A stretch of DNA of 64,000 nt from Gammaproteobacteria bacterium (GTDB lineage: Bacteria > Pseudomonadota > Gammaproteobacteria > Xanthomonadales > Wenzhouxiangellaceae). Below are positions 7,730 through 56,729 of the stretch, piece after piece. The stretch is taken from contig JAJFKX010000019.1 of the NCBI GenBank assembly GCA_021772985.1, forward strand, positions 372,001 to 436,000. The letters run 5' to 3'. The notes beneath the pieces were generated by a model, which was not told where the DNA came from, made no database searches, and saw only the letters and a program-made list of their open reading frames with translations. The position numbers were made by a program, and so were the translations under genes. Positions within the stretch are counted from its first letter, which is position 1, and each line of letters begins with the position of its first letter.

Positions 7730-10567
7730 ATGACAACCATAGACAATTTTCGCTGCAATAAAATGCCAGCGTTGGTAACCTTATTCAGTTTAGTGTTTTT
7801 TATCAGCCTTTGTTCGTCGGTACTGGCAGGACCAGGTATCTGGACCTCTACAGGCCCGGATGGCGGCCAGGCAGTTGGGCTGGTCGCATCACCCAGCACA
7901 CCCAATACCTTTTATTCTGTTTCCCGGGGCGGTGTATTCAAGTCTATCGATGGCGGTTTCAACTGGGCTGCATCCAGTGTCGGGATCACCCGTCAGCTTG
8001 GTGTCACAATCCTGCATAGCCAGACCGCCCCAAACACCCTATATGTATTCGGCCGGTTTAATGTGTACTTCAGCAACAATGGCGCAGCCAGTTGGAACGA
8101 TCGAACGCCGCCGGGCATGATGACAAACAGCGGCATTATTACGGCCACCCTGTCGCGGATATTCCCCGGCAGGATTTATCTGGGTTTAGCAGATGGCTCG
8201 GTATTGCGCTCTGACGATGCCGGTTTGACCTGGTTCGCCACCAGCCCATTGCCAGTGTCCGATATAAGTGTGACTGCAATGGCAGCCCACCCAACCGACC
8301 CCAATGTGTTGCTGGTTGCGGCTCAATCACTAATCTCTACAGATATTCATTTATACCGTGGTTCTGCCGCTGGTGGTGTCTGGACAGAAATAACCTGCCC
8401 CGGCGTTTGTCCATGGGGTACATCAGTGCTGGCAGACATCGCTTTTGCCGGCAGTAGCGGTAAAACCTGGGCGGTCAATTTTAATGGTGTATACCAGAGT
8501 CTGGATTTCGGCAGCACCTGGGTTACCACTCCAACGCTGCCTGTCAACGCTACTGGCGGTCAGTTTCTAGCCCCGAATCCGGATGATAACGATGATCTAT
8601 TTGTTGGTGGTCGTCTGGGGCTGGCATTTACCCAGGACAATGGCACTACCTGGACTGAAGTTCTGAATGGCTTTGTTGGAAACTCTTCGGGCCACATCGG
8701 CATGTCGCAGCAAGTAGTGTACGACCCATTCAACACTACTATTCAACTAGCCGGCTCACTCGGCAATGGTGTATACCGCCGGGTCAGCCCGGCCATGGAA
8801 ATATGGACACCCAATGTATCTGGCATGAATGCCGCCAATATTCGTGCTATTGCCATTGCCACCAGTAGCCGTATCCATGCGGCTATCGGCGATTTATTTG
8901 AACCCACTTTCAGCGCTTTCCGTAGCACCACCGGCGGCAGCAGCTGGACAGCGACCAATACCGGACTGGAAGCAGATCACTTCCGTGATATCAGTGTTGA
9001 CCCGAATAACAACTTGATTGTCTATGCATCTGGCCGTTTTTTACCGCACCAGGATGACATGTTTGGCTTCAACCCCGGCAATGGCGGTATTTATAAAAGT
9101 TCTGACGGCGGTGTTAGCTGGACCACCATCGACAATGGCATTCCATTAAACCCAGGCATATTTAACAATACGGTGTTCGGCACTGTGCGCACTATTACGT
9201 TAGACCAATTTAGTGGATCAGGTGGGGGCAGCGGACCCATTCAGACTTTGTTTGTTGGTGGCACCGGGCGCTTCACAGATGATGGAATGGGCGGTTTTAC
9301 CCAGAATGCCGGACGTATTTACAAAAGCACCGATGCCGGAGCCAACTGGGTGATTATGGATAATGGACTCGGTAACGCAGAATTGGGTGGTTCAGGGCGC
9401 CCACTGTGGGCATCGGTGGTGCAAATTGTGCAGGATCCCAGTGATGTAACCGGCGCTACATTTTATGCCGCTACATTTATCGGCGGAACTGATGGCAGCA
9501 TCCCATTAAGCATACCGAACGGGGTTTTCAAAACAACAGATGGCGGCGCCAACTGGATTCCGAGAAGCAATGGTTTACCCCCGCTGGATGGTATTGCCGG
9601 CTCCACCCAAACCAATGTTTTATCACTGGCACTGGACCCAACCGACCTTACCGGAAACACCCTGTATGCATCCACCAACGACTTTAGTAACGGATTCGTC
9701 GGTACTGCATATAAAACCACCGATGGCGGTTTGAACTGGTTTTTCTCCGGCACCGGCCTGATGGACCGCGATGTTCGTGACCTGATTGTCGAACCAACAA
9801 CCGGGGATGTCTATGCTGCTGTAACCGATCCTTTATCAAACGGTGATGGCGGCGTTTCCCGCAGCACCGATGGCGGCGCCAGCTGGCAATCGATCAGCAT
9901 TGGCTTTCCTGCTACGGCTGTTGCTACCAAACTTGCTTTGGATAATACCGGTGCCAATCTGATTATTCATGCCGGTACTACGCGCAGTGTACAAAGCTTT
10001 GAAATGCTACCCGATATGGATACCGATGGTGTCCCTGATCTGTCTGAAGACAATTCTCCCAACGGTGGTGACGGAAATCTTGATGGCATGCAGGATTCCG
10101 ACCAAAACAATGTTTCTTCAGCACCCATCAATAATACTAACCTCGGACTCAGCGAATATGTAACTGCTGTGGTTACCGCACAGATCGGCAATTGCGCCAG
10201 TCTGGAAAATGTTACCGGACTGGACACAGTAGGCAGCATTCCGCTGGAAACCACTTACAATTTGCCCTTCAATGGTATTCAGTTACGTATACCCGATTGC
10301 CAATCCGCCACCATCGATCTGATTTATCATGACCGCAGCTTTGAAGATAGCACTGAAATACGTACCTATGCTCTGGAGTTTCCTGATGAACTGCGTTTTG
10401 TCTGGCAACAATTGCCTGGCTCCACAGTCATTGGAAATACTTGGAGCTTCAATCTGAATGATGGTCAGCTTGGCGATAGCACACCTGATGATAATGTTAT
10501 TTTGTTTTTGGGTGGACCTGCAGTGTTATCAGAGGTGTTTTTCAGCGACGGAATGGAAGTGGAATAA
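7730..10567 (+). CDS. Exported Asp-box (BNR/sortilin-like) propeller protein with choice-of-anchor-like domain and DGFE-like tail
   Basis: 945 residues with a signal peptide (hydrophobic stretch near residues 12-32, likely cut after SSVLA). At least ten Asp-box loops of the type SxDGGxxW are spread through residues about 60-710, for example YKSSDGGVSW, YKSTDAGANW and YKTTDGGLNW, implying one or two beta-propellers. Next come an acidic calcium-type segment (DMDTDGVPDLSEDN, near 763) and a domain resembling the choice-of-anchor U module (WSFNLNDGQLGDSTPDDNV). The last residues are EVFFSDGMEVE. No catalytic residues of sialidases are evident, so binding or structural roles are as likely as enzymatic ones. 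It is a lone gene between two terminators. Confidence 0.8.
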   Translation: MTTIDNFRCNKMPALVTLFSLVFFISLCSSVLAGPGIWTSTGPDGGQAVGLVASPSTPNTFYSVSRGGVFKSIDGGFNWAASSVGITRQLGVTILHSQTAPNTLYVFGRFNVYFSNNGAASWNDRTPPGMMTNSGIITATLSRIFPGRIYLGLADGSVLRSDDAGLTWFATSPLPVSDISVTAMAAHPTDPNVLLVAAQSLISTDIHLYRGSAAGGVWTEITCPGVCPWGTSVLADIAFAGSSGKTWAVNFNGVYQSLDFGSTWVTTPTLPVNATGGQFLAPNPDDNDDLFVGGRLGLAFTQDNGTTWTEVLNGFVGNSSGHIGMSQQVVYDPFNTTIQLAGSLGNGVYRRVSPAMEIWTPNVSGMNAANIRAIAIATSSRIHAAIGDLFEPTFSAFRSTTGGSSWTATNTGLEADHFRDISVDPNNNLIVYASGRFLPHQDDMFGFNPGNGGIYKSSDGGVSWTTIDNGIPLNPGIFNNTVFGTVRTITLDQFSGSGGGSGPIQTLFVGGTGRFTDDGMGGFTQNAGRIYKSTDAGANWVIMDNGLGNAELGGSGRPLWASVVQIVQDPSDVTGATFYAATFIGGTDGSIPLSIPNGVFKTTDGGANWIPRSNGLPPLDGIAGSTQTNVLSLALDPTDLTGNTLYASTNDFSNGFVGTAYKTTDGGLNWFFSGTGLMDRDVRDLIVEPTTGDVYAAVTDPLSNGDGGVSRSTDGGASWQSISIGFPATAVATKLALDNTGANLIIHAGTTRSVQSFEMLPDMDTDGVPDLSEDNSPNGGDGNLDGMQDSDQNNVSSAPINNTNLGLSEYVTAVVTAQIGNCASLENVTGLDTVGSIPLETTYNLPFNGIQLRIPDCQSATIDLIYHDRSFEDSTEIRTYALEFPDELRFVWQQLPGSTVIGNTWSFNLNDGQLGDSTPDDNVILFLGGPAVLSEVFFSDGMEVE

Positions 10568-10639: not shown

Positions 10640-13003
10640 CTAGATTGGTGGTGCGATAGGCACAGACTCACTAACCGAGACCGTGATTCGTTCGTCTGGC
10701 GATAATCCGCCATCTTCTTCCAATAACACTTCACCAAATGCCATCAAATTACCACTACTCACACTACTGGCAGTTATGGTGAGGATTTGCACTGAGCTAA
10801 CCGGCCCAGCACTTACTTCAGCACCATCCATGAATAACACATCACCTGGCAATAATTCGAAACTGCTGGGTGAAACCGAAACGGTAAAACCATCACCTGA
10901 GCCCGAAGCATTCCAGAGCGCCTGCATGGGTAAGGCATTGCGGACGATACGAGTCCAGCTGCAGGTAGGGCTGCAACTGGTGCTGCGGGTACTGGGAACA
11001 TTAACTGTGCTGGGGTCACCACCAGTCGCCGGGTCGGCAGCCAGCATATTGGCAAAAGATTCATCCATTACCAGGCCTGCCAATGAAGCTTTGGTTAAAT
11101 CGACGGTCCCGGAACCTACCAGATCAGGCGTAGCAGCACTGACACCATCAGCCGCTTTCACATCCGTATCAGCTGTCATCATCAATGCCGACTTGATTTC
11201 CATAATGCTCCAATCAGGATGTTCAGCGATCATCAATGCGCCGGAACCAGCCAGGTGCGGGCTTGACATCGAAGTACCCGACTTAAACCCAAAAATGCCA
11301 TCAGGGTCATTAGCAACGGCAGCAAATATGTTGGTTCCTGGACCATTGATGGAAGGTTTGGTCAGGTCAAAATCCAAGTTAGGCCCGACCAAACTGCCGC
11401 CAGCTAATATGTTGCCGGCCAATGGTTCCAGCGTTACAAATGACTCATCATCCAGCATCGCAGTTGGACCCGGATTGTTACCAATGTAAGTCTCTAATGC
11501 GGCACCATCGGTAGAACCTACCATTAATGATGGAATGGTGGTGGTTTCCAATGCACCCATAACAATAGGTACCGGGCTTGCATTATTGAACACTACCACA
11601 GCTGTAGCACCCGCCGCAGAAGCGTTATTCACTTTGTCTTCAAACGAACAACCGCCGCGGCTGATCAGAGCAATACTGCCGGTAAACGGCGTGCCTGCCC
11701 AGGCATTGCAACCTTCAAAATTTGCGGCGTCAACATCACTTGCAGCTACCATTGGGTCAACAATATCAGCTGGAAAAGCCGGACCTGAACCAACCAGTCC
11801 ATACAGGTCCGTTACCCCATCAGCCGGCACTGGTGCAGGTGCCGTGATACTGACCGCGTTTTTATTAATCCGATCGTGAGAACTGTTGGCGACTGTCATG
11901 ATCCAGGGCCCTCTATGTGACACATCAGCTTCCGGATTGTCATTGGTCCCGGTTCGAGTATTGCCTGCGCTGGCAGCAACAAAAATACCGGCACCTAATG
12001 CATCCAGAAAACCTCGATCCGTAGCTTCCGCCCAGGGACTGATACCTCTGCCACCAGCAGTTGGGCCAATAGAATAATTAAGCGCATCTACGCCATCAAG
12101 AATGCTTTGATTGATTGAACCCACCAAGGCAGCACCACCACAACAGCCGGCATATGAAATGACATTGGCGTGTGGCGCCACACCACTGATCCCGCTGACA
12201 TCAAATAACTGACCGTTCTCATCGATAAACGGACCGTCAACTATATTGCCACCCGAGGTGCTTGCTGTATGTGAACCGTGGCCATCAGTATCCTCAGGAC
12301 CACCAACGGCACCACCGACGAACCCCCAGGCGCCAATAAGTTTGTCGTTACAAACCACCTGATCTCCCTGACCTCCAGGATTGCAATCACCAAGAAAGTT
12401 ACCGCTACCCAATGGATTAGTAACGGTAAAACCGTCACTGCCGGTGGCAGCAAAAGAAGGATGATCGGTATTAATGCCGGTATCGATCACACCGATAATT
12501 GTACCTTCACCCATATTACCAATTGCATTATGTGAAGCAGCACCACTCCAAATTTCATGCGCACCAATAAACTCAGGCCCACGGTCTGTATCCAACGAAT
12601 ATATCTTTTCTTCTTCTATCCAAAGAATGCCCGGCAAGCCAGCGACCTGTCCGGCCTCGGCTGCGCTCAACTCCAGCGCCATACCATTGAGTGCTGCATC
12701 GTAACGGAACATCATTGGAATATTTCTGCCAACTGCTTCTTCAATGGTTTGTAGATGCTGGTCTTGAACCTGATGCAGTTGATTCAAAGCCTGCTGGGCC
12801 ATCGGGCTTTTAACATCAAACTTCTTGCGGCCATTGGCAGCTGTTCTGGTAGTTGCTGTATTACTGACCCCACCCAATTGTTGGACCAGGCTTGCCTCTT
12901 GAAACTTCACAATATATACGGCTGTTTCCTGAGCCAAAAGTGTCATCGAAGATAAGCACAATCCAATAACTGCCAGCCACTTCAATTCCTTTGAAAACCT
13001 CAT
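10640..13003 (-). CDS. Secreted S8 (subtilisin-like) serine protease with PA domain
   Basis: 787 residues: signal peptide (about 1-25, cut near LLAQE), an I9-type propeptide (about 28-125), then the S8 domain. The catalytic triad is seen in VIDTGINTDHPSF (Asp), GHGSHTASTSGG (His) and GTSMSSPHLAGSG (Ser). A protease-associated (PA) insert with NNASAAGATAVVVFNN sits between His and Ser. The C-terminal ~100 residues form a beta-rich domain containing LFMDGAEVS, related to the DGFE tail of neighbouring proteins. It is a paralogue of the next gene upstream (13479-15911), with matching domains and promoter. Likely role: extracellular protein degradation. Confidence 0.93.
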   Translation of the reverse strand: MRFSKELKWLAVIGLCLSSMTLLAQETAVYIVKFQEASLVQQLGGVSNTATTRTAANGRKKFDVKSPMAQQALNQLHQVQDQHLQTIEEAVGRNIPMMFRYDAALNGMALELSAAEAGQVAGLPGILWIEEEKIYSLDTDRGPEFIGAHEIWSGAASHNAIGNMGEGTIIGVIDTGINTDHPSFAATGSDGFTVTNPLGSGNFLGDCNPGGQGDQVVCNDKLIGAWGFVGGAVGGPEDTDGHGSHTASTSGGNIVDGPFIDENGQLFDVSGISGVAPHANVISYAGCCGGAALVGSINQSILDGVDALNYSIGPTAGGRGISPWAEATDRGFLDALGAGIFVAASAGNTRTGTNDNPEADVSHRGPWIMTVANSSHDRINKNAVSITAPAPVPADGVTDLYGLVGSGPAFPADIVDPMVAASDVDAANFEGCNAWAGTPFTGSIALISRGGCSFEDKVNNASAAGATAVVVFNNASPVPIVMGALETTTIPSLMVGSTDGAALETYIGNNPGPTAMLDDESFVTLEPLAGNILAGGSLVGPNLDFDLTKPSINGPGTNIFAAVANDPDGIFGFKSGTSMSSPHLAGSGALMIAEHPDWSIMEIKSALMMTADTDVKAADGVSAATPDLVGSGTVDLTKASLAGLVMDESFANMLAADPATGGDPSTVNVPSTRSTSCSPTCSWTRIVRNALPMQALWNASGSGDGFTVSVSPSSFELLPGDVLFMDGAEVSAGPVSSVQILTITASSVSSGNLMAFGEVLLEEDGGLSPDERITVSVSESVPIAPPI

Positions 13004-13478: not shown

Positions 13479-15911
13479 TTATGCGTCAGGTGGCGGGGTA
13501 CCACCATAAGGCAATGCTGTATTTACCGTTGCAGTAATAATGGCGTCAGGATGATCACCAGAATCATTACTCATGGTAATAGCGCCAAAATTCATCCCTT
13601 CTGAAACCGTACTGACTGCACTGGCATTAATAACCAGTTGCTGCCAGGAACTGCTCGCTGCTGAACTGGTTTCACTGCCATCCCGGAATATGGTATCGCC
13701 GGATAATACACAGAAACTGGCGGGGCTGGTTGCCAGGGTAAACCCACTGGCTGTATCTGTAACAGTCCAGCATTGTTCTCCGCTGCCGGTATTACGCAAA
13801 TTCCGTTCCCAGGAACATCCACCACCACCGCAAAAACTATTTCGCACGCTGGGCAAGTTCAGTGTTTTGGGATCACCGCCAGCATTTGGATCAGCCGCCA
13901 GGAAGTTTTCAAATGTTTCATGCATGACCACACCGGCATTGGCGGCCATCGCCAGGTCAACCCTGCCATTACCCACATCGTCGGGATCTACAGCAGTACT
14001 GTTGTCTTCTTTTCGACCGGTGGTATCCGCAGTCATCATTAGCGCCGACTTGATTTCAGGCACTGTCCAATCCGGATGCATTGACATCATCAACAAACCA
14101 GCTCCCGCGGTATGCGGACTGGACATTGAAGTGCCGCCCAGGAATTGAAACTCACCTGTAGCAGGTGACGGTGGAACATCTGCTTCCGCGCCTAACACAC
14201 TATCACCAGGAGCGGTGATATCAGGTTTGGTGACGTCAATGCTTAAATTCGGTCCGCGCAGACTGAATCCGGATAAAACATCTGCAGCACTTGGATCGGA
14301 ATCACCTAAAGAAGAACCGGAAATCGTGCCGGTATGGCCTGCGCCACTGGCCAGCCAGGTCCGCAGGCTATCGCCCAAACCCACATCAATATGCACAGCG
14401 GGCAACGCATGCGGGTCGGAATTGACTGAACCGGCGACCACATTTGCCAGGATCATACCGCCGGCACCACCTGCCTGCGCATTAGCACCCTTGGCCACAC
14501 GGGCAATAGTGCCACGATCGCATACCACTATCTCACCGCTGGTCCATGTCCCTGGAGGAAATGGGACCAGGCATTGTTCAGGCGCAGTGGCCGGATCGCC
14601 ATCACCATCGTCAAAATCACCGGCATAAACGATTGTTTCCGGACCATAACCGCCGGTTAATGTGCGCCCGTCCATATCAGCAGGAGCAGGAGTATCACCA
14701 CCGCTCATATTGTTTACATGACCATCGGCTGGGCGATCATGCGTTGAAGAAGCCACAGTCATTACCCAGGGCCCCAGATGATTAACATCAGCAATTGGAT
14801 TGGTATTGTCATCCCGAGTATTGCCTGCAGATGCAGCAACAAAAATACCTGCGGCTACCGCATCCAGAAACAGGCGATCACTTTGGCCTGCTGCCCATGG
14901 TGCATTACCACCGCTGATTGAGTAGTTGAGAGCTGATACACCATCCAGAATGGCTTGCTGAATAGCCCCGTTAGTTGCCGATCCCGGGCAAGTCGCATCA
15001 CAGGCATCGTATGAAATCAGATTGGCATGTGGCGCTACACCGGATGTCTGGTCACGGGGAGGTGAATAAGTACTGGCCGGCAAGTTACCGCCGTTGTCAC
15101 GTAATTCAAAGGGGCCGGATATATGATTGCCGGCGGACAAGCTGGCAGTGTGACTGCCATGCCCATTAGAATCCTCAGGAGCACCTACGTCAGCTCCAGA
15201 TTGCATATCCCACGCGCCGATCAATTTGTTATTACACTGCACAATACCAGGCAATCCAGAAATATTACCAATACAGTTACCGACAAAAACATTATTTCCA
15301 TTAGGGTTGGTAAACACATGACCATCCACAGGGCCAACTTCTGCATAAGCTGGATGATCAGAATTAATACCTGTATCGATCACCCCCATAATTAAGCCTG
15401 CACCCTGGCTTGGAATGCTGGAAGGTGCTGCTGAACCACTCCAGATAGTATCAGCTTCAATCCAGTCCGGGCCGTGATTGGTATCCAGTTGATTCAACGT
15501 ATCAGGCAAAACTAGACGAACACCTGGCATATCAACCAGTGCAGCAGCTTCGCCGGCACTCATGGCAATCGCTGCTCCGACATCTGAAACGGTATAACGA
15601 AAGCTCACATCCAGGCTCCTGCCCAGCTGATTGCTTACTTGATCAAGGCGTTCGCTCAGGCGACTTTCAATGCTGTTTAATGCATTAACAGCTGCCGGTG
15701 AACGTGCATCAAATCGCTGCTTGGCATTACTTTTAGTGAACTCACTGCGCAACGAACCACTGCTGGTTCTTGCCTGGTCAAGTAACGCCTGATCATCGAA
15801 GTAGACCAGATAAAGACCTGTCGGGCTCTCCGGCATTTGTGCAAATAACGCCAACGGTAACATGCACAAAACTGCTATGCTTAACCGCTGCAAACTTAAT
15901 AAAAACCTCAT
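13479..15911 (-). CDS. Secreted S8 (subtilisin-like) serine protease with PA domain, paralogue
   Basis: 810 residues: signal peptide (about 1-25, cut near LFAQM), a propeptide, then the S8 domain with Asp in VIDTGINSDHPAY, His in GHGSHTASLSAGN and Ser in GGTSMSSPHTAGAG. A PA domain (ANAQAGGAGGMILANVV) is inserted before the Ser region. The C-terminal beta domain contains CSWERNLRNTG and IFRDGSETSS, the counterpart of LFMDGAEVS in the adjacent protease. Domain order, leader and promoter match the gene at 10640-13003, so the two arose by tandem duplication and then diverged. Likely an extracellular protease acting on proteins or peptides. Confidence 0.93.
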   Translation of the reverse strand: MRFLLSLQRLSIAVLCMLPLALFAQMPESPTGLYLVYFDDQALLDQARTSSGSLRSEFTKSNAKQRFDARSPAAVNALNSIESRLSERLDQVSNQLGRSLDVSFRYTVSDVGAAIAMSAGEAAALVDMPGVRLVLPDTLNQLDTNHGPDWIEADTIWSGSAAPSSIPSQGAGLIMGVIDTGINSDHPAYAEVGPVDGHVFTNPNGNNVFVGNCIGNISGLPGIVQCNNKLIGAWDMQSGADVGAPEDSNGHGSHTASLSAGNHISGPFELRDNGGNLPASTYSPPRDQTSGVAPHANLISYDACDATCPGSATNGAIQQAILDGVSALNYSISGGNAPWAAGQSDRLFLDAVAAGIFVAASAGNTRDDNTNPIADVNHLGPWVMTVASSTHDRPADGHVNNMSGGDTPAPADMDGRTLTGGYGPETIVYAGDFDDGDGDPATAPEQCLVPFPPGTWTSGEIVVCDRGTIARVAKGANAQAGGAGGMILANVVAGSVNSDPHALPAVHIDVGLGDSLRTWLASGAGHTGTISGSSLGDSDPSAADVLSGFSLRGPNLSIDVTKPDITAPGDSVLGAEADVPPSPATGEFQFLGGTSMSSPHTAGAGLLMMSMHPDWTVPEIKSALMMTADTTGRKEDNSTAVDPDDVGNGRVDLAMAANAGVVMHETFENFLAADPNAGGDPKTLNLPSVRNSFCGGGGCSWERNLRNTGSGEQCWTVTDTASGFTLATSPASFCVLSGDTIFRDGSETSSAASSSWQQLVINASAVSTVSEGMNFGAITMSNDSGDHPDAIITATVNTALPYGGTPPPDA

Positions 15912-33894: not shown

Positions 33895-35748
33895 TTAGTT
33901 TTCAAATCCATCCGCCATGAATTGTTCACCCAGTTCCGGTACCAGAATATCCAGGGTTGTGGTATCCGGTGAGGAGATATCACCAAGACGGATAGTTGCT
34001 TGTCCGTCAATCGGCGGACCAGCAATGAATGTAATGGTGTAAGCGTTACCCCAAGGCATTTCATCACCGCTGCCGGCCTGAATACTGAAGTTGGCACCTG
34101 CGCCCTGTGTCCAATCATTCGCTGCATCGTGATCCACATCATGGAATGTGGTGTTGTTCATTCTGCCGGCAGGCACATTTAAGGCCAGCTCAGATATACC
34201 TGCAGGAGCATCAAAGTTTTCCAACATATAAGTCCAACGGAACTGACCGCCCCCAAGATCTACACTTTTCACAGCCAATTTGAAATGTCCATTCCTTCCA
34301 GGGTCAGCAAATAGTGCACTCTGACTGCCGGTATTGGGGTTGGTAGATGGTGGTACCCATAGGTCAATTACAGGACCTACTACAAAGGTGCCTAAACCAT
34401 AAGTCCAACCATTACCACCGCCTGGGTTATTCGGTGTTATCGGACGGTAACCCATGGAATTAAAAATATCCACATCATCCCGAATTACATAATGAGATTG
34501 GAATAAATACTGTGCACCTGGTGTTTGCAGGTCTTCACGTAGCACCTGCATACGGTTTTCACCCGGGCCACTGGAGAAGTTGTCCTGTACACCGTTGCCA
34601 TCCTGGTCAAAAAATGAACCGGTACTAACAAATACACCGGTTGTAGGATTGACTTCATCCCGCGGGCCGACATCCCGATCCGAGTCATTATTACCTACGC
34701 CATAAACGTCACCACAACCAGGCCAGAGAACCTGATTGTCACTACAGTTAATGGTGCAACTGGAGTTAATCGTCAAAAAAGCATGCTTGATGCCAGAACG
34801 ACCGATTTGCTCAATCACACCGTCAGTCACGCGATATATATTCCAGATCAGATATGGATGCTGGTCAGTATCATAGGGTGGAAAGAAACCTTGGAATTTT
34901 TGTTGCCAGGGTACATCCGCACCATCCAGACCAACCAGACTGCGCAAGCTGCTGCTGGGAGCAATCAACTCGAAAGTGCCACCTGAATTGGTAACCGTAC
35001 CAACATCTGATACTGAACCCATATTGGTCAAACCCACATCAGCAATAAAGCCTTCAGTTGGCCATTTGGGTCGCTCTGCACAAGTACTTCCACGGGTCTC
35101 CAATGCAGCGCCGGCTGGAATATTAAGATTCAAATCTAAAGCCAGTTCACCGATGAACTGATCAGTCAGTTCGGGACGACCTAAGCGAATAGCCAAAGCC
35201 TCTGAAATACGGATGTCCATCCGTTCCATAACCAGCTGTTCACGTTCCTGAGCGACGTAAACATGGATATTGGTCGCATAAAACAGCGTGTTACCGGCAC
35301 TATCCACCAATTCAAATGAATCAAACTCAAAACCACCAACTGGTTTGATCTGCATTTGTGACCAGCTTACTTCAGTGCCCTGACTGCTGATGGTAAATCC
35401 CTGATCAAGGGTTAATACACCGTCAATAAAACCGCCAAAATTGCCGGCTGGACTGTGAAAACTGATACTGCCCAGATTTTGTACCGGCACCAGATAATGG
35501 GTACTGGCGGGAGCACGCTGTCCTGCGCGTAAAGATAAATTCCAATCGGTAAAAATGTCGTCCTGAAACTTCATTTCCACTTCACCGCCCCAGGCTGACC
35601 AAATCTCAGTCGGATTGGCGATGCTGGTGCGATCAACAATACTCTGCGCTAACGCAGACCATGACATTAGCAGGAAGCCGCACAGTGTCAAAATCCTGCC
35701 CAAAAAAACACCGGTTTTCTGATTACTTATCATAGTGTCGTCCATCAT
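33895..35748 (-). CDS. Secreted protein of unknown function ending in a DGFE tail
   Basis: 617 residues (or 612 from a second ATG at 35733). A signal peptide is visible, ending SWSALAQ near residue 35. The rest is beta-rich and has no domain I recognise; it includes paired Cys (STCAERP, SSCTINCSDN), a calcium-type DQDGNGVQDN segment and the aromatic HYVIRDDVDIF region. The protein ends EQFMADGFEN, the same terminal motif as other exported proteins in this window. It is monocistronic and convergent with the lipoprotein gene. Likely extracellular or surface-located. Confidence 0.8.
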   Translation of the reverse strand: MMDDTMISNQKTGVFLGRILTLCGFLLMSWSALAQSIVDRTSIANPTEIWSAWGGEVEMKFQDDIFTDWNLSLRAGQRAPASTHYLVPVQNLGSISFHSPAGNFGGFIDGVLTLDQGFTISSQGTEVSWSQMQIKPVGGFEFDSFELVDSAGNTLFYATNIHVYVAQEREQLVMERMDIRISEALAIRLGRPELTDQFIGELALDLNLNIPAGAALETRGSTCAERPKWPTEGFIADVGLTNMGSVSDVGTVTNSGGTFELIAPSSSLRSLVGLDGADVPWQQKFQGFFPPYDTDQHPYLIWNIYRVTDGVIEQIGRSGIKHAFLTINSSCTINCSDNQVLWPGCGDVYGVGNNDSDRDVGPRDEVNPTTGVFVSTGSFFDQDGNGVQDNFSSGPGENRMQVLREDLQTPGAQYLFQSHYVIRDDVDIFNSMGYRPITPNNPGGGNGWTYGLGTFVVGPVIDLWVPPSTNPNTGSQSALFADPGRNGHFKLAVKSVDLGGGQFRWTYMLENFDAPAGISELALNVPAGRMNNTTFHDVDHDAANDWTQGAGANFSIQAGSGDEMPWGNAYTITFIAGPPIDGQATIRLGDISSPDTTTLDILVPELGEQFMADGFEN

Positions 35749-38527: not shown

Positions 38528-39322
38528 ATGACCAAAGACGAATACATTAAGCAGGTTCAAGCTTTCGGGCAGACTGATGATAACTACCTGGAGTGGCATG
38601 CTGATCGCTTTCTGATCACCAAAGCCATAGTTGACAATCGTTTGAGACTTCAAGCAGCTCGCGCAATATTCGATATCGGAGCGCATTGGCTGCACCAGGC
38701 CTATTTGTACGGCGTGGATGGCCATCAGGTAATAGCTACCGACGTGGGCGGTGTGCTGGCAGTGCAATCGGTCCAGGCACTGGCACGGGAGAACGGAATT
38801 CAAATCCAGCAATCTGCAGGTTTTGACCGGCAAGGTGCTTTTGCTGATGTGGCTGATAACAGTATCGATATCGTTCTGTTTACCGAGATTCTGGAGCACA
38901 TCACTTTTAACCCGGTGGAACTTTGGCAAGAGATTCATCGTTTAATGAAACCTGATGCAGTAATCGTCATTACCACGCCAAATTATTACTTTTGGCAATC
39001 ACGTGCCTGGGCATTTTCACGTTTTATAAAACGTATGGGCGGCGGCATTCCGGTAGCAGACATTATTAAGCAGGTCACCTATGGCCACCATTGGAAGGAA
39101 TACTCGGCAAGAGAAATTGTGCGTTACTTTGAGTTGCTACCGATACCTCTTTACGTCGATCACGCCGAGTATCTGTCATTTAATACCGCCCATCGGCTAC
39201 GCGTTCCCAAATGGACAACTAGCTTATTTCATAAACTGGAAAAACAGCTGCCAATTTTAAGGGATTCCATTTATCTGGAAGTACGCAGATGCATGCCCCA
39301 CAATAAATCAACAAGCCAGTAA
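38528..39322 (+). CDS. Class I SAM-dependent methyltransferase, substrate unknown
   Basis: 264 residues. Rossmann-type features are the glycine loop AIFDIGAHWLHQ (a degenerate motif I), VIATDVGG, the post-I acidic turn and FTEILEHITFNP followed by LWQEIHRLMKPDAVIVITTP, typical of methyltransferase type 11/23 domains. The C-terminal half (HHWKEYSAREIVRYFELL) resembles bacterial methyltransferases found in polysaccharide or lipid modification clusters. Its 3' end overlaps the converging chorismatase gene by 15 bases. The substrate cannot be deduced. Confidence 0.8.
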   Translation: MTKDEYIKQVQAFGQTDDNYLEWHADRFLITKAIVDNRLRLQAARAIFDIGAHWLHQAYLYGVDGHQVIATDVGGVLAVQSVQALARENGIQIQQSAGFDRQGAFADVADNSIDIVLFTEILEHITFNPVELWQEIHRLMKPDAVIVITTPNYYFWQSRAWAFSRFIKRMGGGIPVADIIKQVTYGHHWKEYSAREIVRYFELLPIPLYVDHAEYLSFNTAHRLRVPKWTTSLFHKLEKQLPILRDSIYLEVRRCMPHNKSTSQ

Positions 39323-40264
39323 GAAACCATCCAATTCAACCATCAAATCCCGGCGACATATTTCACCAGCCAGTGGTAGCAGATGGTGTTGATCAAAACC
39401 GGATTCCAGCAGTTTTTCGCGAACCAGTTGCCAATCAGACGGATTGCGCAAATACACTCGCAAGCAGGGCAGCTGCGAATCGATTTTTGCGCATCGACTG
39501 CCGCTGACTTCCAACAGCGTATTAAGGTTAATCAACATTTCACTGGTTTGCGATACTGTATCCAGCGGGTGACTGGTCGCATGCCCTACTACACTGGCCG
39601 TACCTGAAATCAACAGCAAACCATGCTCAGCATCCAATGTTGCGCGCGAGAAGTTGGGACTGGAAGGTCCGTAATCACGCGGATATTCCCAGGCACTTGT
39701 TTGGCGTGGGTTTTCAATATTCTGCCCAGTGTTATTACTGGTAACCCAATACATCACCAAATTGGCATCCGGATCCGGAATACCAATAGCAGTCGCCGAT
39801 GGCAATGGGTTCTGATAGCCTGCTTTCATTAAAGTGTGCGCGCGTCCCAAACAAAACTGCCGATAACGCTCATCATCTCCACCACCGTCATTGATACCAG
39901 GTAAATAGTGCCAGGTTTTGAGCAGATGCGGATGGTCCAGTTGCAATGAATATAAAACTTGTTGCCACGCATATGCAGTTGCCTGGGCAAAGCTGTCAAA
40001 TTCGGCAGGATCCAATTGCAACCAAAACATTGAATAGCCATTTGACTGATGCTGTTGAATAGTGCCGCCCGAAATCTGAATAGGTGTTATGCTGACAGCA
40101 TCCTGCACGCACCACAGTTCATCAATTTCTGGCCCCTCCAACACCTGCAAAGGAAGGCTCCACGGTTTTCTATGTGGTGTACTGCGACATTTGATACGCG
40201 CCAGCTCGTACAAGCCGTCAGGCACCACTTGTCCCGGCAAACAATTGATAATTTGCAGCGACAT
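39308..40264 (-). CDS. Chorismatase (XanB2/FkbO/Hyg5 family)
   Basis: 318 residues from the ATG at 40264 (MSLQIINCLPGQ), which overlaps the stop of a small upstream ORF as TGATG. The family is identified by HLLKTWHYLPGINDG, DERYRQFCLGRAHTL, NPRQTSAWEYPRDYGP, NFSRATL and LLISGTASVVGHATSH. Members split chorismate to a hydroxybenzoate (3- or 4-HBA) or a dihydroxycyclohexadiene acid plus pyruvate. In Xanthomonas XanB2 feeds 3-HBA to xanthomonadin and 4-HBA to ubiquinone. The subtype cannot be settled here. No aryl polyene cluster is visible in the window; the ETF genes lie upstream on the same strand. Confidence 0.88.
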   Translation of the reverse strand: MSLQIINCLPGQVVPDGLYELARIKCRSTPHRKPWSLPLQVLEGPEIDELWCVQDAVSITPIQISGGTIQQHQSNGYSMFWLQLDPAEFDSFAQATAYAWQQVLYSLQLDHPHLLKTWHYLPGINDGGGDDERYRQFCLGRAHTLMKAGYQNPLPSATAIGIPDPDANLVMYWVTSNNTGQNIENPRQTSAWEYPRDYGPSSPNFSRATLDAEHGLLLISGTASVVGHATSHPLDTVSQTSEMLINLNTLLEVSGSRCAKIDSQLPCLRVYLRNPSDWQLVREKLLESGFDQHHLLPLAGEICRRDLMVELDGFLLAC

Positions 40265-40431
40265 CAATCTGATAATTGAGGCAGATCGCGAAATAATTTC
40301 AACGCTTCAGGGTTGGTTACTGACCAATCATGCAGCTTCAATTTATATCGACGATTGAAATCTTCCCGAAAAACAGAGATATTGGCTTTCGCGACTGACT
40401 GTTGACCGGGCCGCCATAAGATTTCAGTCAT
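40264..40431 (-). CDS. 55-residue ORF resembling the N-terminus of acetoacetyl-CoA synthetase
   Basis: The frame starts at the ATG at 40431 and ends at TGA 40264-40266, sharing bases with the chorismatase start. It reads MTEILWRPGQQSVAKANISV, continues to LKLHDWSVTNPEALKLFRD and then stops. The pattern W-x-P-x(5)-A-x-A-N-[IM]-x-x-F ... WSVxNPEA matches the N-terminal segment of acetoacetyl-CoA synthetase-type acyl-CoA ligases, which are normally over 600 residues. It may be a decayed ligase, with the rest deleted, or a short protein kept for its own function or for coupling chorismatase translation. It sits 36 bases after etfA. Confidence 0.5.
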   Translation of the reverse strand: MTEILWRPGQQSVAKANISVFREDFNRRYKLKLHDWSVTNPEALKLFRDLPQLSD

Positions 40432-40467: not shown

Positions 40468-41406
40468 CTAAGAAAGTGCTTGCTCAAGTTCCGGGATAAC
40501 CTGAAATAAATCACCCACCAGGCCAATATCCGCGATCTCAAATATTGGCGCATCAGCATCTTTATTAACCGCAATAATTGTGCCGGCATCTTTTATTCCC
40601 GTGACATGCTGGATCGCGCCCGAAATACCAAATGCAAAATACAGTTCTGGTGAAATGATTTTTCCGGTTTGGCCCACTTGCATATCATTCGGCACATAAC
40701 CCGCATCAACCGCAGCTCGTGATGCTCCAACGCCTGCCTTAAGCTTTCTGGCCAAAGCGTAGATCATTTCAAAATTTTCTGCACTGCCCAGCGCCCGGCC
40801 ACCAGATATAACGATATTGGCTGTTTGCAGATCTGGTCGATCACCTGCTTCCGTCCGCAATTCAACAAAACGGGTATGCGCTGGACGGTCTGACTGTGGC
40901 GCTGATTGCTCAATCGTGGCGCTACCACCTTCACCCGCGGCCGCCCATGATGCTGTCCGCACAGTGGCCACAACCAGGCTATCAGCAGGCACCGTTACAT
41001 CCACAATGGCGTTGCCGGCATATACCGGGCGTTTAAAGCTGCGTGCTGAGTTCACTGCCATAATATCGCTGACCTGGTTAACCCCAAGCAACGCGGCTGC
41101 TCGTGGCAGCACGTCTTTACCGAACATAGTTGATGGGGCTAATACATAACCATAACCATCGGCTTGAGCGGCCAGCTCAGGCGCAATTTGTGCAGCCAGT
41201 GGGTGGCTAAAGTCCTGATGGTCGATTTGCAGCACTTTGCTGACGTCAGCAAGCCCGGCTGCCTGCTTTGCAACGGCTTGACCATCGTTACTGAATATTG
41301 CCAGGTGAACTTCACCGCCTATTGCTTTAGCACAAGTAACACATTTAGCCGTAGCCTGATTCAATTGACCGTTGGCGTGTTCGGCAAGGATTAAAATTTT
41401 ACTCAT
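40468..41406 (-). CDS. etfA: Electron transfer flavoprotein, alpha subunit
   Basis: 312 residues from the ATG at 41406 (MSKILILAEHANGQ), placed 7 bases after AAGGA; longer frames overlap etfB. The C-terminal FAD domain has IVISGGRALGS, VGASRAAVDAGYVP, QVGQTGKIISPELY and GISGAIQH, all diagnostic. With EtfB it carries electrons from acyl-CoA and other flavin dehydrogenases to ETF-ubiquinone oxidoreductase. It is 10 bases downstream of etfB. Confidence 0.95.
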   Translation of the reverse strand: MSKILILAEHANGQLNQATAKCVTCAKAIGGEVHLAIFSNDGQAVAKQAAGLADVSKVLQIDHQDFSHPLAAQIAPELAAQADGYGYVLAPSTMFGKDVLPRAAALLGVNQVSDIMAVNSARSFKRPVYAGNAIVDVTVPADSLVVATVRTASWAAAGEGGSATIEQSAPQSDRPAHTRFVELRTEAGDRPDLQTANIVISGGRALGSAENFEMIYALARKLKAGVGASRAAVDAGYVPNDMQVGQTGKIISPELYFAFGISGAIQHVTGIKDAGTIIAVNKDADAPIFEIADIGLVGDLFQVIPELEQALS

Positions 41407-41416
41407 CATGTTTTCC

Positions 41417-42163
41417 TTACAACAGTCCACGGTTTTTTAATTCGCCGACTAGACCGGCCACATCATCGACCATAATGCCTTTACTGCGTTGCGCTGGAGG
41501 ACTCCACTGGCCTATTTGCAAATTGGTATCGTCATGGCTGGTCAATTCACCAAGCGCTACTACATCCAATGGTTTTTTCTTGGCTTTCATAATATCCGGC
41601 AACTTCACAAACCGAGGCGTATTCAAACGCAGGTCAGTGGTAACAACCGCAGGCAGATCAATATCCAGAACCTCCAGGCCGGCATCAACTTCGCGGGTAA
41701 CCAGCGCACTGTTGCCGTTTATTACAATTTCGGCAGCATTGGTCGCCTGAGGGCGTCCCCACAATGCAGCCAGCATTTGGCCGGTCTGATTATTGTCATC
41801 ATCAATTGCCTGTTTACCCAACAGCACCAAGCCAGGTTGCTGCTGCTCGATCAGTGCCAAAAACGCACGGGCTGCCGATAACGGCTGCAATGTTTTATCA
41901 GTATCAATCTGAATGGCACGATCTGCTCCCATCGCCAACCCGGTGCGGAGTTGCTGTTGGCACTCATTACCGCCCGCAGAAACCACCACAACTTCATCTG
42001 CAGTACCGGCTTCGCGCATTTGCAAAGCTTCTTCCAGGGCAATTTCATCGAATGGATTAATGCTCATTTTCACACCACCGGTATCCACACCTGAACCATC
42101 AGGGCGCACCTTGACGCGAACGTTGTAATCCACCACGCGTTTAATAAACACGAGTACTTTCAT
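41417..42163 (-). CDS. etfB: Electron transfer flavoprotein, beta subunit
   Basis: 248 residues beginning MKVLVFIKRVVDYNVRVKV. The signature NPFDEIALEEALQMREAG and the AMP-binding GMGADRAIQID-like segment AMGADRAIQI are present, as is the leucine-loop region LNTPRFVKLPDIMKAKKKPL. It forms the heterodimer with EtfA. The promoter is presumably in the 222-base gap toward ETF-QO, which contains a 7-base inverted repeat (42248-42263). Confidence 0.95.
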   Translation of the reverse strand: MKVLVFIKRVVDYNVRVKVRPDGSGVDTGGVKMSINPFDEIALEEALQMREAGTADEVVVVSAGGNECQQQLRTGLAMGADRAIQIDTDKTLQPLSAARAFLALIEQQQPGLVLLGKQAIDDDNNQTGQMLAALWGRPQATNAAEIVINGNSALVTREVDAGLEVLDIDLPAVVTTDLRLNTPRFVKLPDIMKAKKKPLDVVALGELTSHDDTNLQIGQWSPPAQRSKGIMVDDVAGLVGELKNRGLL

Positions 42164-42385: not shown

Positions 42386-43984
42386 TTACAAATTCTGATA
42401 ATTCGGTCCGGCACCACCTTCCGGCGTAACCCAGTTAATGATTTGATATGGATCCTTGATATCGCAGGTCTTGCAGTGAACACAATTGGCAGCGTTAATC
42501 TGCAGCCGCTTGCCTTGCTCGTCTGTGACCATTTCATAAACATTGGCCGGACAAAACCTGGTGCATGGGTGATCGAACTCTTCAGCACACCGGGTCAAAC
42601 AAACATCTGGTTCCAGAATCTGCAAATGCACCGGTTGATCTTCATCGTGCTCGGTGGCGGCATAATAGACTGATGCCAAACGATCCTTGGGCGGCAATTC
42701 CCGCTCAACCCACTCACGCTGGATAGATAAATTGGTTTTTAATGTTGCATGATCAGCATGATTTTTGAGTGTCCATGGTGACCAGCCTGCTGTTGCTGTT
42801 TCCCAAGCCGCATTAGCCAGACCCAGCCACAAACCTTTGTAAAACCCAGGCCGAATATTACGGACTTTCTTTAATTCACTGACAATTGGCGACCCCCGCA
42901 AAAGCTTATCAAACCCCTGGCTGGTGATGACGTCGCCCTGCGCATGCAAGTGTTCCGCTGCCAGCATCCCGGAGCGGATCGCCTGATGTGTGCCTTTGAT
43001 CTTGGGCACGTTCAACAACCCGGCTGCATCACCAATCAATAATGCACCAGGCATTTCGGTGGTTGGCAATGATTGATACCCACCCTCAATAATCGCTCGG
43101 GCACCCGAACTGATGATTTCTCCGCCTTCCAGCAAGGCACGCATCCGGGGATGATGCTTGAACTGTTGAAACGCTTCAAACGGCATGAACTGCGGATCCT
43201 GGTAATCCAAACCAGCCACGAACCCAAGCGCCACGCGGTTATCATTTAAATGATAAACAAAACTACCGCCATAAATCTGTTTGTCCAGTGGCCAGCCTAT
43301 GGTGTGCTGCACCAGACCCGGCTTGACTCGCCCTTCCGGCAAACGCCACAACTCTTTCATGCCAATGCCGTAGGTTTGCGGATCACAATCCTGATCCAGC
43401 TTGAAATGTTTGATCAATTGCTTACTTAAATGTCCGCGACAGCCTTCTGCCAGGACTGTTACCGGGGCCTGTATTTCAATGCCTTCAACATAGGTATCCT
43501 TTGGCTTACCCGATTTGTCCACCCCCATATCGCCGATGATGACTCCTTTTACTTCACCATTCTCACTCCAACTAATTTCACTGGCGGCATAACCTGGGAA
43601 AATATCCACTTCCAGGTTTTCAGCCCTGGCAGCCAACCATGCACACATCGCCCCCAGTGAAACAATCACATTGCCATGGTTACTCAACTGGGGTGGCGTC
43701 AGCAATTTACGCGCACTGCGCTTACTCAAAAACAAAAATTCATCTTTTATGACCGGCACACAAATAGGTGGCGGATGATCACGCCAATCAGGCAAAAGCT
43801 GATCCAATGGATCTGTTTCAATGACGGCGCCGGATAATATATGCGCACCGACTTCAGCCGCCTTTTCGATCACACAGACATTGACCTGAGGATTCAGCTG
43901 TTTCAGGCGTATAGCACACGCCAAACCAGCAGGACCGCCACCAACAACGATCACATCATATTCCATAATCTCACGTTCGCTCAT
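42386..43984 (-). CDS. Electron transfer flavoprotein-ubiquinone oxidoreductase
   Basis: 532 residues. The N-terminal FAD motif is VIVVGGGPAGLACAIRL, and a second FAD contact is ALLIGDAAGLLNVPKIKG. The C-terminal ferredoxin-like domain binds one 4Fe-4S cluster through Cys in RFCPANVYE and CVHCKTCDIKDP. It is a monotopic inner-membrane enzyme that moves electrons from ETF to ubiquinone. It is upstream of etfBA on the same strand, completing the pathway from acyl-CoA and amino acid oxidation to the respiratory chain. Confidence 0.95.
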   Translation of the reverse strand: MSEREIMEYDVIVVGGGPAGLACAIRLKQLNPQVNVCVIEKAAEVGAHILSGAVIETDPLDQLLPDWRDHPPPICVPVIKDEFLFLSKRSARKLLTPPQLSNHGNVIVSLGAMCAWLAARAENLEVDIFPGYAASEISWSENGEVKGVIIGDMGVDKSGKPKDTYVEGIEIQAPVTVLAEGCRGHLSKQLIKHFKLDQDCDPQTYGIGMKELWRLPEGRVKPGLVQHTIGWPLDKQIYGGSFVYHLNDNRVALGFVAGLDYQDPQFMPFEAFQQFKHHPRMRALLEGGEIISSGARAIIEGGYQSLPTTEMPGALLIGDAAGLLNVPKIKGTHQAIRSGMLAAEHLHAQGDVITSQGFDKLLRGSPIVSELKKVRNIRPGFYKGLWLGLANAAWETATAGWSPWTLKNHADHATLKTNLSIQREWVERELPPKDRLASVYYAATEHDEDQPVHLQILEPDVCLTRCAEEFDHPCTRFCPANVYEMVTDEQGKRLQINAANCVHCKTCDIKDPYQIINWVTPEGGAGPNYQNL

Positions 43985-55310: not shown

Positions 55311-56729
55311 CTATTCAAAACCATCCACCAGCACATCTTCAGAAGTACCAATAGTCACCACAAACCCGGCCGCAGTCTGGGCGTCGACATGCACTGAAAT
55401 TTCGTTGGCATTATCGACGAATGTCTCACCCACGCGCCACATAACACCCTCGGTGTCGGCAAAATTAGCAGCCGGATTATTTTCATCCAGCACCCATGAA
55501 GGTTCCGATCGTCCCGGTATTACCTCATGAATAATCACCGCATCTCCAGGCATCGCCTGATCGTAATCCCCTATCCTTAGACGTGACTCAACTGTGTAGT
55601 AGCGATTGGTTCCGCTGATATCAATTCGCGCCATCCGGAAGTTGCTGGTGTTTTCCACCGCCAACGCATCTATGGTTATGGTTGAGCTGACATTGGCCAG
55701 AAAACGCTCACTGTCATCAATCCATCCCAGATTGCGTTTATGGTAGGCATTGACGTGTTTGCCGATGCGACCATAAACAGGGTCTGATACTGAATAACTG
55801 GTCGCTGCACTCATGACATCCCAGGGACTATCATAAGGATTACTGTCGTTGTCGGAATTATTGGTATGCGGCAAGCCAAAACCATGGCCCATCTCATGCG
55901 CAATAACCGCTTCATCGGCATAACCCCAGGGTGGTTCCCAGGTAGTCCGCCAGACCTTACTGATCCCATCCAAGGTGGCAAATTGGCCACCACCCCAGGC
56001 ACAGCAATCCAGCAGACCATTAAACATCATATTAATGCCCTCAAACCCACCGCTGCCTGCATTAGAAAAATCCACCACCGCATCTGCGGCAGCGGTACAA
56101 TCATTAAACAGCGCCGTCAGGTTCGCAGTTGTGCCTGAACCAGGTGTGGAAATATAGGATGTTTGAGTATTCGGCAAGCTAACCCAATCTACTGCCAGGC
56201 TGCCCACAACATTGATATTCTCGTAAGAAACCTTTCGCCAGTAATGATCCAATTGATTGACCTGGTTACCATACATATTGCTGAAGTAGGCCAGATTCTC
56301 AGGCTCATCGCTGATATCTGAAAACTTGCATAGAATGGAAACCCAAGGCTGAGGACCAAACACGCCGCCACCACGGGTAGTTTGGCTAGCATTGCTGGTA
56401 TCTGCCAGCATCAGCGCTTGTACAGGTGCTGCATCGATGACATCCAAAACAGCTCCAGCGGCCAGCAACACTTCAACTCGCTGGCCATGGAACCCTTGCA
56501 AGCCATTGTGCATGTCAAAAAACGCATCACTGACATCCAATTGATAATAACCACCACCATCGGTTGCCAGTGTAATGACCCGAACCGGCACCTGATTGGA
56601 ATTTGCCTGTGGATCACCCCAATTCACTGTTAACCAGCCAGACACCCAATTTTCAGCGAATGCCTGAGAGCCGCAACCCATCAAAACCAATAACGCGAAA
56701 ATCGCTCTGAATCTGGTCATCAATGTCAT
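55311..56729 (-). CDS. Secreted zinc metalloprotease (M6/gametolysin-like) with DGFE tail
   Basis: 472 residues. A signal peptide ends GSQAFAE near residue 26 (a Cys in LMGC makes a lipoprotein possible but less likely). The zinc site is VIAHEMGHGFGLPHTNN, HExxHxxGxxH, with a Met-turn candidate in SPWDVMSAATSY. The preceding part has DCCAWGGGQF. After the catalytic domain a beta-rich part ends with TSEDVLVDGFE, the motif at the exact C-terminus. Likely an extracellular protease. It converges with the acyltransferase gene 21 bases away. Confidence 0.85.
   Translation of the reverse strand: MTLMTRFRAIFALLVLMGCGSQAFAENWVSGWLTVNWGDPQANSNQVPVRVITLATDGGGYYQLDVSDAFFDMHNGLQGFHGQRVEVLLAAGAVLDVIDAAPVQALMLADTSNASQTTRGGGVFGPQPWVSILCKFSDISDEPENLAYFSNMYGNQVNQLDHYWRKVSYENINVVGSLAVDWVSLPNTQTSYISTPGSGTTANLTALFNDCTAAADAVVDFSNAGSGGFEGINMMFNGLLDCCAWGGGQFATLDGISKVWRTTWEPPWGYADEAVIAHEMGHGFGLPHTNNSDNDSNPYDSPWDVMSAATSYSVSDPVYGRIGKHVNAYHKRNLGWIDDSERFLANVSSTITIDALAVENTSNFRMARIDISGTNRYYTVESRLRIGDYDQAMPGDAVIIHEVIPGRSEPSWVLDENNPAANFADTEGVMWRVGETFVDNANEISVHVDAQTAAGFVVTIGTSEDVLVDGFE

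Follow-up and report, generated by a model that had tools for sequence, protein, structure and literature searches.

The window (the whole stretch of DNA that was analysed, 64,000 nucleotides) carries, all on the minus strand, genes for both subunits of the electron transfer flavoprotein (ETF) and for ETF-ubiquinone oxidoreductase, a 55-codon open reading frame (ORF) referred to below as the stump, and a chorismatase gene (Table 1). The stump is present as given in a preliminary description of this DNA, its TGA and the chorismatase ATG having one base in common (the A of TGATG). The chorismatase matches PF21168, the N-terminal domain, above the cut-off (76.6 bits, E 2.2e-21; cut-off 27), and TIGR04444 below it (141.1 bits, E 4.5e-41; cut-off 325; G001 copy, 138 bits). 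As judged from these profile scores, it is an intact, diverged member of the broad FkbO/Hyg5 family that falls outside the TIGR04444 subfamily model; it resembles chorismatases of the FkbO/Hyg5/XanB2 type (TIGR04444, PF21168) as a family member and differs from them in scoring 141 bits against a subfamily cut-off of 325, and is predicted to form hydroxybenzoate. At residue 301 it reads GEICR where six aligned relatives have GDICR, a conservative change beside the invariant ICR.

Table 1 Features of the stump locus (positions are those of the window; G001, same-genus relative)
Feature	Position	Strand	Remarks
55-codon ATG ORF, stump of acetoacetyl-CoA synthetase (AACS) gene	40264..40431	-	in-frame internal deletion of ~603 codons
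Stump codons 1-35	40327..40431	-	homologous to ligase residues 1-35; 21/35 identical to G001
Stump codons 36-39 (WSVT), junction tract	40315..40326	-	may derive from the WS motif on the N side of the ligase or from ALA on its C side
Stump codons 40-55 and stop	40264..40314	-	homologous to the last 16 ligase residues and stop; 13 of first 14 identical to G001
Chorismatase, FkbO/Hyg5 family, 318 aa, intact	39308..40264	-	69% identical to G001 copy
TGATG stop/start overlap, stump/chorismatase	40262..40266	-	same overlap in G001
Electron transfer flavoprotein alpha subunit (etfA)	40468..41430	-	listed ORF from GTG; likely start at internal ATG (MSKILI)
Electron transfer flavoprotein beta subunit (etfB)	41417..42163	-	
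ETF-ubiquinone oxidoreductase	42386..43984	-	

Profile searches recognised the stump weakly (NF002937, E 0.014; TIGR01217, E 0.21, 9.6 bits, below the cut-off of 520.9), and Pfam gave no match. The searches met a single genome of the same genus, G001; it carries an intact AACS of 658 amino acids, flanked by etfA and the chorismatase, and the TGATG overlap is present there as well. Residues 1–39 of the stump match the start of this ligase (54% identity, E 9e-9) and residues 37–54 its extreme C-terminus (72%; E 0.011 taken alone, 7e-5 in a smaller search set); in a codon-by-codon comparison with G001, the stop codon of the stump is the ligase's own. The ORF had been described as ligase-like at its extreme N-terminus only and then stopping: the N-terminal likeness stands, the restriction to that end does not. 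Both ends are found in order, in a single frame and at the exact site where relatives carry the whole gene, and the likeness therefore exceeds chance. Two gene ends, ordered, in frame and at the orthologous site are what we take to mark the remnant of an AACS gene, and by this comparison the stump is almost certainly such a gene, with its interior (~603 of 658 codons, ~1.8 kb; figured from the length of the G001 ligase) lost by in-frame deletion. The deletion of a ligase with precise re-joining, one of two possibilities raised earlier, is thus corroborated by the intact gene at the same site in G001 and by the survival of both ends in the ORF. The SSGTTG-type nucleotide loop of the adenylate-forming core is present in the G001 ligase and absent from the 55 residues of the stump; as the entire adenylate-forming body is gone, the peptide cannot be a ligase. 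Compared with AACS (acetoacetate–CoA ligase; TIGR01217, NF002937), the stump keeps the start, the first 35 and last 16 residues, the stop and the gene neighbourhood; it is without the ~603 internal codons, the adenylate-forming domain and hence ligase activity.

The full ligase that the preliminary description proposed to look for in relatives is found at this place in G001 and, at full length, in 11 of the best 80 of 138 chorismatase loci, obtained by an alignment-based scan (a scan with a single chorismatase sequence matched nothing). A ligase lies upstream of the chorismatase in at least 13 of these 80 loci (E <1e-20; 11 full length, two cut by a contig end), a lower bound, as some loci have little upstream DNA. 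All 11 loci with a full-length upstream ligase also have etfB and etfA (block etfB-etfA-ligase-chorismatase); the ligase at locus L133 is 100% identical to that of G001. A fourteenth linked locus, outside the 13 (L139, on a contig of G189), shows the ligase end alone at the contig edge. In a set of 101 genomes, a chorismatase match was obtained in 81, the window's own included; 57 relatives in this set have both ligase and chorismatase, and in six of the 57 the two are adjacent (3–281 bases apart), a count that adjacencies split across two contigs in fragmented genomes would escape. The G001 ligase scores 900.3 bits with the acetoacetate-CoA ligase equivalog TIGR01217 (cut-off 520.9), against 89 bits with the 3-hydroxybenzoate-CoA ligase HbdA (cut-off 1000). 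Relatives do have ligase and chorismatase as neighbours, but by its scores the ligase is an ordinary acetoacetate ligase. Activation of hydroxybenzoate by the lost ligase, which had been put forward as chemically sensible beside a chorismatase, was accordingly rejected as the leading idea, the intact ortholog being far over the acetoacetate equivalog cut-off and adjacency being a minority arrangement; the functional hint is corrected to that extent. Among the papers searched, none names acetoacetyl-CoA synthetase together with chorismatase.

At the junction, codons 36–39 (WSVT) fit either ligase end poorly. Near the C-terminus, ALA is common to 35 intact ligases and the stump reads SVT; the profile score of the C part is lower than that of all 35, partly from this replacement, and the score of the N part lies within the intact range (2/35 lower). 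Because WSVT fits neither end well and the C part scores below all intact ligases, further change at the junction is indicated. Deletion in two steps explains the residues at the junction ~12 bits better than a single step; other weightings shift the best second step with equal gain. No long repeat is recognisable at the junction, and no common stretch of more than 6 bases occurs at the corresponding ends of the G001 ligase. Repeat-mediated deletion was considered: the PEA (N-side) and ANPEAL (C-side) motifs are alike, but in 34 ligases (of 36; one was without the motif, one without an open frame) the longest common DNA is only 4–10 bases, a length judged, with no control, to be near chance. 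If G001 represents the ancestral state, as other linked relatives suggest, the deletion dates to after the split from G001; it is dated no closer, since this was the only genome of the genus met, and could conceivably be strain-level or assembly-specific.

A search of 398 genomes from the order, with matches listed to E 0.5, recognised a stump-like ORF in the window's genome and in none of the other 397, though a far-diverged stump would escape it; homologous short ORFs upstream of chorismatases, which the preliminary description had wished to see searched for, were in this search recognised only in the window. Of the short-frame matches listed, eleven were inspected, of which three are ligases cut by contig ends and eight have no ligase nearby. 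Rejected as stumps were G185 and G189 (C-terminal ligase ends cut by the contig end beside a chorismatase), G190 (a ligase start running off the contig), G068 and G155 (50-aa frames of chance likeness with no surrounding ligase), and G290, G227, G065, G069, G008 (C61) and G107 (surroundings of the match without a ligase at E 0.01). A frame broken in relatives with the chorismatase still intact, named earlier as a sign of decaying debris, was not seen among the genomes searched, which have whole ligases, contig-cut ligases or no stump. In the window's own genome (G000), no other AACS scores above the cut-off (best TIGR01217 match 253 bits versus 520.9) and no match to the G001 ligase reaches 1e-100; the absence of an AACS above cut-off elsewhere in G000 means that the ligase core was not left on another contig. 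An anti-phage library gave no match.

A possible replacement is encoded elsewhere in G000. Contig C28 (L217:6145-8081) has an adjacent ScoA/ScoB 3-oxoacid CoA-transferase pair, the ORFs sharing base L217:6801; genes for a RidA-like protein and a transglycosylase lie next to it. CoA-transferases of this kind are unrelated to AACS in fold and sequence. Both subunits pass their NCBIfam subfamily cut-offs (TIGR02429, 252.5 versus 128.5; TIGR02428, 324.6 versus 243.55), and the pair is predicted to activate acetoacetate with succinyl-CoA; the subfamily names also cover PcaI/PcaJ (3-oxoadipate rather than acetoacetate as substrate), so that acetoacetate is a predicted substrate in G000. No such pair was found at 1e-5 in G001, G003, G004, G008 (only 88% complete) and G092, all of which kept the linked ligase; G080 has a CoA-transferase plus an intact linked ligase. 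The corresponding stretch of G001, bounded by the transglycosylase and the gene that follows (asparaginyl-tRNA synthetase by eye), is without the pair, which was either gained in G000 or lost in G001. The closest ScoB among 369 sampled genomes of the class lies outside the order (76% identity, versus 70–71% in four matching genomes of the order), which hints at lateral gain in G000.

Across the 101 genomes, CoA-transferase and AACS show a tendency to mutual exclusion: nine genomes have both, 22 CoA-transferase only, 60 AACS only and 10 neither (Fisher p 4e-8, kinship ignored), a correlative result in which the count for both includes three weaker CoA-transferase matches (G056, G067, G091; E ~1e-31 to 1e-35) and a partial 43% ligase (G070). 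Within the family alone (43 genomes), none has both, two have CoA-transferase only (G000, G017), 32 AACS only and nine neither, seven of these nine being less than 90% complete. G017, the only other family genome with a CoA-transferase match (C400:1861-3053), has one subunit in two frames, perhaps by a frameshift, and no AACS above cut-off. What accompanies loss of the ligase is a CoA-transferase rather than hydroxybenzoate chemistry.

Breakdown of tyrosine by the 4-hydroxyphenylpyruvate/homogentisate route yields acetoacetate. In the window, a homogentisate dioxygenase-like protein, matching only part of PF20510, adjoins a 4-hydroxyphenylpyruvate dioxygenase that scores over its cut-off (342-2560). 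Since these genes would yield acetoacetate, G000 probably still needs acetoacetate activation. By making acetoacetyl-CoA from acetoacetate by another route, as predicted, ScoA/ScoB would render the ligase redundant, and it seems fairly probable that the ligase became dispensable because G000 carries this pair, the two gene patterns being seen and the causal link between them proposed.

Rates of substitution give no clear sign that the stump decays, and have no power to prove that it is maintained. Against G001, its pN/pS is 0.315 (bootstrap 0.19–0.53), with 0.377 for the N part and 0.220 for the C part; in seven intact ligase pairs, these codons span 0.000–0.724 (N) and 0.217–0.441 (C). The comparison is rough: synonymous substitution has come close to saturation, or reached it, between the window and G001, and each of the seven reference pairs has diverged less at such sites (full-length dS 0.56–1.37). 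The rates do not tell a young deletion and a maintained stump apart, since a young deletion would postdate most of the divergence.

Taken together, the stump is read here, with an estimated probability of about 0.9, as what an in-frame deletion has left of a known enzyme gene, probably once another enzyme was able to take its place. The deletion took the interior of the ligase gene and spared the original start, the final 16 codons and the original stop, so that the TGATG junction with the chorismatase was retained; it has the look of ordinary gene loss that left a tidy trace. Gene remnants that arise when the interior is deleted in frame are a known concept, as is non-orthologous gene displacement. 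The case resembles the latter in that one enzyme is lost and an unrelated enzyme for the same step is present, and differs from other remnants in that the gene ends are kept so exactly that the downstream overlap survives. A chance ORF coincidentally resembling the N-terminus of a ligase, with which the weak profile scores and the C-terminal E value taken alone would agree, is refuted by the G001 comparison, as both ends are matched, in order, at the orthologous place. Loss of the ligase core during read assembly is conceivable in a draft genome of 62 contigs and is nevertheless most improbable: the genome is 98.5% complete, no other contig holds an AACS core, no second copy of the stump exists in it, the corresponding G001 ends offer no shared stretch longer than 6 bases, and the join is exactly in frame with both gene ends kept beside etfA and the chorismatase as in G001. 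Slightly less improbable, though still very unlikely, is a maintained functional microprotein using the N-terminal cap and C-terminal tail of the ligase, for example as a regulator or partner. The preliminary description had considered that a short protein carrying the ligase cap region is maintained; the frame of the stump is indeed open with start and stop intact, its N part scores among intact ligases, and its pN/pS is not raised relative to the seven intact pairs, but a recent deletion predicts the same rates, the ALA of all 35 intact ligases has become SVT, and no homologous short ORF was recognised in the other genomes of the order searched, among matches listed to E 0.5.

A further reading, compatible with a gene remnant, takes the stump as a translational leader for the chorismatase, with initiation at the stump and re-initiation at TGATG. 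Anti-Shine-Dalgarno pairing before the chorismatase is 0.4 kcal/mol in the window and 1.1 in G001, against -3.2 before the stump; among 33 ATG-start genes (out of 44 window ORFs, starts as listed), 31 have stronger pairing than the chorismatase and five have none. A stop/start overlap together with a weak Shine-Dalgarno sequence of the downstream gene, taken as the sequence mark of a coupled pair, is thus found for stump and chorismatase. Stop/start overlaps of the TGATG kind are associated with coupling by termination-reinitiation (PMC6728339, PMC10666635). Ribosomes finishing the stump frame would restart at the chorismatase through TGATG; an out-of-frame deletion would have cut this supply, whereas an in-frame stump would keep the chorismatase coupled, because the latter is almost without a Shine-Dalgarno sequence of its own. 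We tentatively suggest, as a minority reading, that the frame was kept, or that only in-frame deletions were tolerated, because the chorismatase probably depends on ribosomes from the upstream frame, and that the stump is tolerated only in frame, or persists, for this reason. A start without a Shine-Dalgarno sequence is no proof of coupling, as pairing is absent from five of the 33 window genes as well; candidate chorismatase starts in ten other linked loci lie between an overlap with the ligase stop and 122 bases past it, so that coupling is not a general rule for the ligase-chorismatase pair. Otherwise, the stump is in frame by a one-in-three accident and the deletion is young. Rather unlikely is the more far-reaching view that a redundant metabolic gene was pared to a minimal translated stump selected only as a ribosome-delivery leader, an enzyme gene having become a regulatory upstream ORF.

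Whichever of these accounts for the frame, a tiny puzzling ORF can be resolved by matching both its ends to the intact gene of a relative, and the gene remnant described here is a clean candidate for studying gene loss from an operon in which the downstream gene is not silenced. Two minor observations concern the surroundings. Large predicted secreted proteins in the window (7730-10567, 10640-13003, 13479-15911, 33895-35748, 55311-56729) have a short acidic FxDGxE-like motif at or near the end (e.g., SDGMEVE, MADGFEN, LVDGFE), which by eye looks like a common C-terminal tag. Contigs C6, C19, C20, C40 and C61 of G000 (loci L066-L074 and unlisted matches) have frames of ~2500–4750 amino acids in which the ligase model finds several matches of the adenylation type; G000 is probably rich in nonribosomal peptide synthetases.
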